Below, piece after piece: positions 48,435 through 51,888 of a stretch of 64,000 nucleotides of DNA. Origin of the DNA: Syntrophomonas sp. GTDB lineage: Bacteria > Bacillota > Syntrophomonadia > Syntrophomonadales > Syntrophomonadaceae. The notes under the pieces were generated by a model that saw nothing but the letters and a program-made list of their open reading frames with translations, was not told where the DNA came from and searched no databases. Each line of letters begins with the position of its first letter. The first letter of the stretch is position 1. The stretch covers positions 62,001-126,000 of the forward strand of contig JAENZN010000006.1 of assembly GCA_016841245.1 (NCBI GenBank), written 5' to 3'. The position numbers and the translations under genes were made by a program.

Positions 48435-48524
48435 TTGGACTTGCATTTGCACTCCACATTTTCTAATGGACAGCTGACTCCGCACGAGTTGATCAATGAA
48501 GCTTATAAATGCTATCTCAAATAA
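48435..48524 (+). pseudogene. N-terminal fragment of a PHP-domain phosphoesterase
   Basis: After GGTGGTGAT, a TTG at 48435 opens a 29-residue frame reading LDLHLHSTFSNGQLTPHELI, the start motif of PHP-domain phosphoesterases (HxH plus S/D-G). It ends in a stop at 48522-48524, just inside the 3' end of splB on the other strand, and the remaining metal motifs are missing. It is a remnant of a gene cut when the region was rearranged. Confidence 0.6.
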
Positions 48525-49548
48525 TATAATCTATTTTAGCTCCAGGGAAATGTCGTCCTATGAACTCCGTAAAGAAGATTCTCATTTCCTGGAGCAGTTC
48601 TTTCTGATACACAAACTTGCCATAGCCAAACTGTCCGTATTTGTATGTACGGGATTCATCCTCGGCCATGGGCAGAGAGGTATCGGGGAAAACCTCCAGG
48701 ATATTATTCCTGGCCCTGCGGGTGAAACGATGTGATATCACTTCAAAATGGATATCTCTAGTATCGCCCTTCAACTCATCACTTAAGTTATTTAGCATAT
48801 CGTGGTATTCCTGTTTCCAGCTGCCGTCTAATATGACCGGGGCTATAATCACACCTCCCGGGTAACCATGTTCCATCAACCGGGATAGAGCTCTTATGCG
48901 TTCCTGCAGGGCTGGAGTACGATGCTCATGGGTTTTAATGATCCGTTCAGTGTTAATGCTGAATCTTATCCGGGTATGTCCCCGGTGATCCAGATCAAGC
49001 AGGCTATCGATGCCCGGGAATTTGCTTACGAATTTCAAGTAACCGTATTCCTGGGTGGCAAAAAAATTAATCGCTTTAGCCAGAGCGCCAGAATAAGGTT
49101 CTACCGGTATAGGGTCGGATGTTGCAGCGGCTTCAAAGACAGTTTTCTCCGGCTGTCGCTGTTGAATATATTTTTCCGCCTGGTCCAGGATTTCATCGAT
49201 ATTGATATATACCCGGGTATACGGTTTTTTCCCCAGTTGGGTATTTAGATAGCAGTATTCACATATACCCTGACAGCCAGTAACCAGCGGTAATTGAAAA
49301 TGGGCTGAGGGTTTGCAGGCAGCGAAATCCAGGGTTTTTCTAACCCCTACAACCAGAGTGTTTTTGCCCTGGAAAAATGATTCCCGCGGTGTTTTACCAG
49401 GGATATTGGTGACCCGGTTGTGGGACTTGAGAAAATTTATTTCATGTCCTTCTGCTTTTAGGCGCTCGTACATTTCTTTTCCCAATGGGTAATCCAGAGC
49501 ATCTGCTTCAAAATAAATTCTTTTTACTTGTAAAGCTGTCACGGTCAT
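48517..49548 (-). CDS. splB: Spore photoproduct lyase
   Basis: SplB is the radical-SAM enzyme that reverses the UV-made thymine dimer of spores. The 343-residue protein has the typical HNRVTNIPGK and TLVVGVRKTL segments and the cluster motif GCQGICEYCYLNT (C92, C96, C99). In Bacillus subtilis the essential hydrogen-donor Cys141 lies in FEASCTSD; the matching stretch here is FEAAATSD, with Ala at that place. A different cysteine, C78 in AACKPSAH, is present. The gene is monocistronic, and sporulation genes elsewhere in the window fit its role. Confidence 0.95.
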   Translation of the reverse strand: MTVTALQVKRIYFEADALDYPLGKEMYERLKAEGHEINFLKSHNRVTNIPGKTPRESFFQGKNTLVVGVRKTLDFAACKPSAHFQLPLVTGCQGICEYCYLNTQLGKKPYTRVYINIDEILDQAEKYIQQRQPEKTVFEAAATSDPIPVEPYSGALAKAINFFATQEYGYLKFVSKFPGIDSLLDLDHRGHTRIRFSINTERIIKTHEHRTPALQERIRALSRLMEHGYPGGVIIAPVILDGSWKQEYHDMLNNLSDELKGDTRDIHFEVISHRFTRRARNNILEVFPDTSLPMAEDESRTYKYGQFGYGKFVYQKELLQEMRIFFTEFIGRHFPGAKIDYII

Positions 49549-49647
49549 TTGTCTGCCTCCACCAGGGTAAAATAGATAAACATCTTATTATACTATCGTT
49601 TCCCAATCAAAGCAGCCAATACCGGGTAAAGAATGCCAATTCATATT

Positions 49648-49710
49648 GGGGTCAGGCACTAACTTACTAACTTAAATTAAACATAAGTTAGCAAGTTAGT
49701 GCCTGACCCC
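49648..49710. repeat. REP-like 27-base inverted repeat
   Basis: The arms 49648-49674 and 49684-49710 (outer part GGGGTCAGGCACTAAC) match at 26 of 27 positions around a 9-base loop. The outer GGGGTCAGGCAC motif is of a kind seen with REP-type palindromes in Clostridia. It is unrelated in sequence to the palindrome at 32269. It lies between splB and ablB. Confidence 0.65.
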
Positions 49711-49717
49711 ATAGTGA

Positions 49718-50623
49718 TCAATTGTGGAGGTACTTAGAAAAAACATTCATATCCTCGAAACCGCCGCTAATATTACAGTTATTAACCAAGGTTCCTGAAT
49801 ATTGATAGGCTGCCAGCGAAAATGTTAAGTTCATTCCCAGTGAAGTACTGCGAGCAATGGTATATAAACAATTAATTCCCATAGCAGAAAGCTTATGTTC
49901 TAATTCTTTAAGAATTATTGAAGCCAGCCCCTGTCCTCGTTCAGATGGTAGGGATGCAAAATCAGTCATTTCCGAATTAGCGTACTTATAGTTTATTTCC
50001 GCAGCTGCAGCCGCCACCAGCTTATCATGTTTGTACACCAGTCCATAGATAGTATTAGCCAGGTTTGATTCCAGATATTTTGGATCAAAAATTGGATAGG
50101 GGTAAGTTGCAAACACCTGGCGGTATAGGGCGGCAAGAGCTGTCAGATCTCGTTTCTCAGCGTATTTAAAAGAGCATCCTTCCGGCAGATGTCTGCTCCG
50201 GGGAGCTGTGGAATCGTAGTCTTTAAGCTGCTGAAGAACCCGACTATTGGTATCAGCTGTATCAGAAGACTGGCGTTGATCAAAGAATCTGGAACATATC
50301 ACGGCATCCTGCTGCTGAGAAAAATAACCTCTGATATCGGCTTCAGCTATGAAACCCTCCTCAAGAAACAAGGCTTTATCTTTTTTGAGTATTTTGCCCC
50401 ATACCTTGGTAAAGCTCTGCCGGGTACAGATGGTTTCCAGCAATATGTTCAGAGCTTTCGGGCCTGCACTGCTATTAAAATGATAATCTAAAATGCTTAT
50501 CCTCTTATTATACGGAGAAAAATCAAGCTGGGCGGAAAATCCATCCCCACGAAGCTCTTTATATATCGCCCGGGGTGAAGTAATGTCGTGCCCGATTTCT
50601 TCCAATAGTGCCATAACTGTCAT
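49718..50623 (-). CDS. ablB: Putative beta-lysine N-acetyltransferase
   Basis: AblB acetylates beta-lysine to N-epsilon-acetyl-beta-lysine, a compatible solute. The 301-residue protein has an N-terminal domain and a C-terminal GNAT domain with KRDLTALAALYRQVFATYP, ADFASLPSERGQGLA-type acetyl-CoA loop (LPSERGQGLASIILKELE) and NLTFSLAAYQYSGTLVNNC near the end. Its first base is shared with the last base of ablA, so the pair is translationally coupled. Confidence 0.93.
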   Translation of the reverse strand: MTVMALLEEIGHDITSPRAIYKELRGDGFSAQLDFSPYNKRISILDYHFNSSAGPKALNILLETICTRQSFTKVWGKILKKDKALFLEEGFIAEADIRGYFSQQQDAVICSRFFDQRQSSDTADTNSRVLQQLKDYDSTAPRSRHLPEGCSFKYAEKRDLTALAALYRQVFATYPYPIFDPKYLESNLANTIYGLVYKHDKLVAAAAAEINYKYANSEMTDFASLPSERGQGLASIILKELEHKLSAMGINCLYTIARSTSLGMNLTFSLAAYQYSGTLVNNCNISGGFEDMNVFSKYLHN

Positions 50624-51888
50624 TATTCCTCTGCCGGCTCCCTTCTAAGTGACCGCACATTCCCTTCTGGAATCAGGCTGACTATATCATTATCGTCACT
50701 GTATAGTATTTCCAGCCCGATTGGTTCCTGCTCTTCACTGCATTTTTGTTCACAAAGATTGCAGCCTGGGGGACAGGAACTAGTTTGATCCTCAGGTTCG
50801 GTGTAAACACAGATAACCCCTTCATAGTTCCTTAAAATGGTTTTGCGGTTTGAATACGAAAGTAAATAATTGGGCTGCAGAGGTATTTTCCCGCCGCCTC
50901 CTGGTGCATCTACTACAAAAGTAGGTATTGCATAACCTGAAGTATGACCGATAAGCATCTCCAATATTTCTATCCCCTTGGATACAGGAGTTCGGAAATG
51001 TTCTATACCATGAGAAAGATCGCACTGGTAAAGATAATAGGGGCGAACCCGATTCTTAACCAGCTTCTGGACCAGCTGTTTCATAATTACCGGACAATCA
51101 TTAACTCCACGCAGTAAAACCGTTTGATTCCCGAGAGGAATTCCAGCATTAGCAAGATCTGTCAGTGCACGGCTGGCTTCGGGAGTAATCTCCCGGGGGT
51201 GGTTAAAGTGAGTATTAATCCATATAGGATGATATTTTTTTAACATAGATATAAGTTCATTATCAATACGCATAGGCATTACTACCGGTGTGCGTGTTCC
51301 GATTCGGATGATCTCTACATGGGGAATCTTTCTGATGGCCGAGATGATCTTTTCCAGTTTTCTAGTACTCAGTAAAAATGGGTCTCCTCCGGAAATCAAA
51401 ACATCTCTTACATTTTCATTACTTTTTATATACTTTATTCCTTCGTGAATATCAGACCAGGAGATCCCAGACTCTTCTTCTCCGACCTTTCTTTTACGAG
51501 TACAGTGACGGCAGTACATAGAGCATTCATTAGTAGCCAGCAGCAGGACTCTATCCGGATAACGATGAGTCAATCCGGGTACCGGTGAATCACTATCCTC
51601 ATGCAGGGGATCTTCCAGATCATACTCCGTTGTCAGCAGTTCTTCTACGCTGGGAATAGCCTGCATACGAACCGGGCACCGGGGATTGTTTTTATCCATC
51701 AACGAAGCGTAATAAGGAGTAATTGCCATAGGAAAAATATCGGCCGCTTTTCTAATCCGGGCTTCATTTTCTCCTGTAAGCTTAACAACATTTTTTAAAT
51801 CCTCAACTGTAGTAATTTGATTTTGCAGCTGCCAGTGCCAATCGTTCCATTTATCTTCTGCACCGCATACTGCGCCTGTGATTCCGAT
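50623..51888 (-). CDS. ablA: L-lysine 2,3-aminomutase
   Basis: AblA is the radical-SAM, PLP-dependent enzyme that makes L-beta-lysine; with AblB it forms an osmolyte pathway. The cluster motif CSMYCRHCTRKR and DVLISGGDPFLL are clear. Conserved coding sequence (KWNDWHWQLQNQITTVEDL) extends upstream of the first ATG (51729), and with the frame taken to 51888 the protein has 421 residues, the normal length. No ATG, GTG or TTG exists in frame there: GGAGG is followed 8 bases later by ATC at 51888, while a GTG at 51898 is out of frame. Either a rare start codon or a small frameshift is involved. Confidence 0.9.
   Translation of the reverse strand: MGITGAVCGAEDKWNDWHWQLQNQITTVEDLKNVVKLTGENEARIRKAADIFPMAITPYYASLMDKNNPRCPVRMQAIPSVEELLTTEYDLEDPLHEDSDSPVPGLTHRYPDRVLLLATNECSMYCRHCTRKRKVGEEESGISWSDIHEGIKYIKSNENVRDVLISGGDPFLLSTRKLEKIISAIRKIPHVEIIRIGTRTPVVMPMRIDNELISMLKKYHPIWINTHFNHPREITPEASRALTDLANAGIPLGNQTVLLRGVNDCPVIMKQLVQKLVKNRVRPYYLYQCDLSHGIEHFRTPVSKGIEILEMLIGHTSGYAIPTFVVDAPGGGGKIPLQPNYLLSYSNRKTILRNYEGVICVYTEPEDQTSSCPPGCNLCEQKCSEEQEPIGLEILYSDDNDIVSLIPEGNVRSLRREPAEE

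Follow-up and report, generated by a model that had tools for sequence, protein, structure and literature searches.

Spore photoproduct lyases (SPLs) contain a [4Fe-4S] cluster that cleaves SAM; the 5′-deoxyadenosyl radical takes H6proR of the lesion, and fragmentation of the lesion gives a thymine allylic radical. The standard reference residue for the donor that returns a hydrogen atom to this product is Cys141 of the Bacillus enzyme. When it is replaced, as in Bacillus C141A, TpT-SO2− is formed in place of TpT as the main product. For the corresponding residue of Geobacillus, C140, a distance of 4.5 Å between the sulphur and the methylene carbon is reported in the accessible part of PMC3742179. 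The SPL of Clostridium acetobutylicum (Yang et al. 2017, as cited in PMC5368176) has its conserved cysteine, C74, on the opposite side of the pocket, facing a tyrosine. According to the accessible sections of the same article, this enzyme repairs SP TpT in vitro, with ∼80 % TpT and ∼20 % TpT-SO2− (the dithionite-trapped product) being formed, and C74(Ca) is placed less well than C141(Bs).

The window (the whole stretch of Syntrophomonas sp. DNA that was analysed, 64 000 nucleotides) carries a splB-type gene on the minus strand (48517..49548), the ORF of which encodes 343 amino acids. Its product had been named a spore photoproduct lyase in a preliminary description of this DNA, and the assignment was borne out by the TIGR04070 profile (spore photoproduct lyase, equivalog), which scored 502.6 bits (cut-off 400) and was aligned over its full length (residues 8–343 of the ORF on profile positions 3–338 of 338). 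PF20903 was matched with 410.3 bits, and the PDB matches comprised five distinct sequences, each named spore photoproduct lyase. The closest named relatives are Syntrophomonas metagenome-assembled genomes (loci L007, 96 % identity, and L002, 88 %). A profile search of the window's own genome returned the window gene as the single TIGR04070 match, by which a second, compensating SPL gene in the same genome was ruled out. Three SASP matches (PF00269) lie above the Pfam cut-off in this genome, as does one Spo0A match (402.2 bits versus 200; 47 further matches fall below), so that a spore former carrying the lesion is to be expected.

A phage or plasmid origin of the gene was considered and dismissed: one phage record was matched, at just 24 % identity, and among 20 plasmid records the best was splB of Bacillus velezensis at 45 %. 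No relative was found in the viral contigs that were searched with the window protein. An IMG/VR contig classed as viral (L202) ends in an SPL gene of the Bacillus type with 68 % identity to that of Geobacillus, which is possibly host DNA beside a prophage.

Upstream of the SPL gene lies a palindromic repeat (49647–49711) with two 28-nt arms that are 96 % complementary and 9 nt apart. For the 16-mer GTTAGTGCCTGACCCC from this repeat, 38 copies were counted in the genome, often as inverted pairs, against 0 for a control; the repeat is REP- or MITE-like. It is followed by ablB (49718–50623) and the adjoining ablA, lysine 2,3-aminomutase (50623–51729, minus strand). The match of the ablA ORF to its profile does not begin until position 49 of 417; the start may therefore be elsewhere, or the gene may be cut short.

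The window protein contains four cysteines, at positions 78, 92, 96 and 99. The last three form the radical-SAM motif CxxxCxxC (CQGICEYC, residues 92–99; 49252..49275, minus strand), and the relay tyrosines Y97 and Y99 of Bacillus are present as Tyr98 and Tyr100. Against wild-type Geobacillus SPL (chain 4fhc, FEAACTSD), the protein aligns without gaps from residue 9 to well past the donor site, which identifies residue 142 as the donor column. In place of the Cys141 motif, the ORF translation reads FEAAATSD (residues 138–145; 49114..49137, minus strand), as the preliminary description had said, at 49137–49114 within the interval 49105–49145 that it gave. The column of Bacillus C141 and Geobacillus C140 is occupied by Ala142 (codon GCA, 49123..49125, minus strand), and the cysteine that marks the Bacillus (C141) type is accordingly absent, again as described. 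Among the PDB chains, 4fhc and 4k9r have Cys in this column, 4rh0 and 4fhe have Ala, and 4fhg has Ser. The sole cysteine outside the cluster motif, Cys78 (codon TGC, 49315..49317, minus strand), aligns without gaps with Geobacillus Ser76. A cysteine at the S76 column combined with none at the C140 column is the pattern of the clostridial (C74) type, and it is found here as Cys78 and Ala142. Chains 4rh0 and 4rh1, which we take to be entries of Benjdia et al. 2014, combine Cys at the Ser76 place with Ala at the donor site, that is, the pair of the window protein.

A sequence error at FEAAATSD, the possibility of which had been raised beforehand, is very unlikely on the evidence of codons and relatives: each of the three bases of GCA would have to change to give TGC or TGT, and the identical motif, with Ala142, is present in L007 and L002.

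Both donor sites were surveyed in 201 loci, consisting of the window gene (L001), 79 relatives and 121 loci from 120 of the 164 phylum-draw genomes above the TIGR04070 cut-off. The relatives had been found with the window protein, by which the sample leans to the window's kind; the phylum loci were the 30 best plus 91 hand-picked from the list and are not random, and several records were present in both sources. L080 is a fragment, and 200 loci were readable at both sites. Residues 78/142 were Cys/Ala in 184, Cys/Ser in six, Cys/Gly in one and Ser/Cys in nine. A cysteine at 78 without one at 142 was thus present in 191/200 and the reverse in 9/200; no readable locus had both cysteines or neither. 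These are not 200 independent tests, since the complementarity of the sites rests on few evolutionary switches. The phylum part alone (n=121) gave 106 Cys/Ala, six Cys/Ser and nine Ser/Cys. The arrangement with the reference residue, Cys141, is therefore the less common one in this sample (9/200 overall, 9/121 in the phylum part). Both relay tyrosines were found in all 200 readable loci.

Among 11 Clostridium-type loci that were checked, the cysteine in the column of residue 78 has the number 75 in nine and 76 in one, counted from candidate Met starts and one or two off from C74. L036 gave no matching number; the only Met found there lies 19 residues before the cysteine. Cys78 would accordingly be the counterpart of C74, by way of these relatives and not of the C. 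acetobutylicum sequence itself.

The preliminary description had proposed Cys78 as a candidate replacement and had suggested a search for conserved alternative cysteines among clostridial SplB proteins, position 78 in particular. The survey supports the candidate, with Cys78 in 191 of the 200 readable loci. The same text had held that loss of Cys141 leaves the repair chemistry unexplained, and this part did not stand: Cys78 matches in position the conserved cysteine described for C. acetobutylicum (PMC5368176, accessible part), and the 4rh0/4rh1 chains combine the same two residues. Another cysteine in a donor position, which had been named as the outcome of a structural alignment that would refute this view, appears at the sequence level in the form of Cys78.

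These observations (191 loci with Cys78 and no Cys142, nine with the opposite pair, none with both or neither, and a published C74 enzyme) identify a known enzyme type. We consider it very probable that the window protein is a normal clostridial SPL of the C74 type in which Cys78, and not residue 142, is the donor. The [4Fe-4S] cluster would be held by C92, C96 and C99, and Cys78 would hand a hydrogen atom back to the product radical. SAM would then be regenerated by relay of the thiyl radical via Tyr100 together with Tyr98, perhaps once the pocket has closed, as has been suggested for C. acetobutylicum SPL. It is most improbable that repair activity has been lost, or that a different reaction is catalysed, with the donor gone. 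The case for such a loss consists of the missing Bacillus cysteine; against it, the frame is open, the score lies above the equivalog cut-off, the cluster motif and the tyrosines are intact, the 191 loci with the same kind of pair include Clostridium species, and a C74-type enzyme repairs SP TpT (PMC5368176, in the part available).

For a wider view of the donor site, 281 loci were reduced by 37 (SASP and Spo0A loci, fragments, duplicates and repeated canonical hits) to 244, of which one was lost to a length and score filter. The window protein, Geobacillus SPL and a second gene of locus L280 were added, giving 246 rows. Residues 78/142 were C/A in 196, N/S in 21, S/C in 12 and C/S in seven; the rarer pairs were I/C and N/E (four each), C/G and V/C (one each). 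A quick IQ-TREE tree was calculated from 101 of the 246 rows with the donor columns blanked, and was rooted on the four N/E rows. Eleven of the 12 Ser78/Cys142 rows form one clade (SH-aLRT 97). The twelfth, L177 (genome G264), stands away from this Bacilli clade and beside Cys78/Ala142 rows (SH-aLRT 98, joint set); its donor site may have switched independently, or it may have kept an old state. It shares with the other Ser78/Cys142 rows several residues that are rare among the 204 Cys78 rows, for instance Ala85 (0/204), His97 (5/204) and Glu293 (3/204); His97 was dropped as a Bacillus-type marker, being present in those five Cys78 rows as well. In five TIGR03886-like rows (Cyanobacteria, Acidobacteriota and Pseudomonadota), Val or Ile at 78 goes with Cys at 142. 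This pairing hints at Cys142 as the older state, without establishing the direction; the program warns of long branches meeting. A TIGR03886 search of 101 phylum genomes gave zero matches, but the controls were equally silent.

The swapped pair of L177 also bears on whether the hydrogen comes directly from some other group, such as Tyr98, Tyr100 or a thiol in solution, with Cys78 in a helping role. The poorly placed C74 of the C. acetobutylicum SPL and its ∼20 % of dithionite-trapped product would agree with this (accessible part of PMC5368176). We nevertheless regard it as highly improbable: in 200/200 readable loci, one of the two cysteines occurs and the other is absent, and L177 has the pair exchanged. 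Placing a cysteine at another spot of the active site, close to the substrate, can restore activity (PMC5682303, accessible part). In Bacillus SPL, the missing lag phase of C141A argues against tyrosine as the direct donor, and the addition of small thiols changed nothing, as given in the accessible text of PMC3742179. Cys78 is thus retained as the probable hydrogen donor of the window protein.

The 21 N/S rows form a distant sister clade within PF20903 that is also present in the window's bacterial family. These proteins (L227–L234 and L250–L262; eight from the family draw and 13 from the phylum search) have Asn78 and Ser142 (window columns) in 21/21 cases, and additional cysteines at window columns 103 (21/21), 108 (95 %) and 313 (90 %), within the motif CxxxCxxCYLVCNxNKC ... 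GKYCY. In the family draw, the clade is represented in 8/54 genomes by full-length matches of 219.8–232 bits, below the TIGR04070 cut-off; two of its proteins were tested against NCBIfam and passed no model's cut-off. With no cysteine at either known donor site, the donor question raised by the preliminary description would be real in this clade. A third donor solution, binding of a second cluster or action on another lesion is conceivable, although we would lean against it. A literature search on SPL, which left most subscription papers outside its reach, returned nothing on this clade.

Replacement of the canonical enzyme by the N/S protein was suggested by the eight family-draw N/S genomes, none of which has a TIGR04070 match above the cut-off, and was rejected. 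Four of 15 phylum-draw N/S genomes (G181, G206, G255 and G311) also have a canonical match above the cut-off, in a fifth (G257) the best E value of the TIGR04070 search is 1.6e-125, and 234/398 genomes lack a match above the cut-off anyway. SASP genes are present in 8/8 N/S family genomes, but also in 51/54 genomes of the family draw. Comparison of mechanical ORFs of at least 80 aa around 10 N/S loci revealed no recurrent neighbour gene; a few were common to two to four loci. At L286, the N/S gene adjoins ORFs whose opening residues resemble those of ruvC, ruvA and ruvB.

Asn78/Glu142 is the pair in four SPL-family proteins encoded on plasmids (Streptomyces, Deinococcus, Roseomonas and Methylobacterium). 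On a plasmid of Roseomonas haemaphysalidis (L280), two adjoining, slightly overlapping genes are both annotated as spore photoproduct lyase family protein; one encodes Ile78/Cys142 and the other Asn78/Glu142, and the two are possibly a working pair. A UV-induced SPL-family gene is reported for the non-spore-former Curtobacterium in the accessible part of PMC12029717.

With the described enzymes of Bacillus subtilis and wild-type Geobacillus, the window protein has in common the family, the CxxxCxxC motif and the two relay tyrosines; it differs in having Cys78 and Ala142 where wild-type Geobacillus has Ser76 and Cys140. Both donor-site residues are shared with the Geobacillus thermodenitrificans SPL chains 4rh0/4rh1 (Cys76 and Ala140), in which the pair departs from wild-type 4fhc and is presumably engineered, whereas that of the window protein is natural. 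From most sampled relatives, which have FEGAATSD or FEGSATSD, it is set apart by FEAAATSD. The SPL of C. acetobutylicum belongs to another species and was likened to the window protein without direct sequence alignment; the two share the family, the lack of a cysteine at the Bacillus donor site and a conserved cysteine at the alternative site. The C74-type arrangement is already known from this studied Clostridium enzyme, and the window enzyme is an ordinary one. As in the Clostridium enzyme, the donor site would have moved and not been lost, which closes the question for the window protein.
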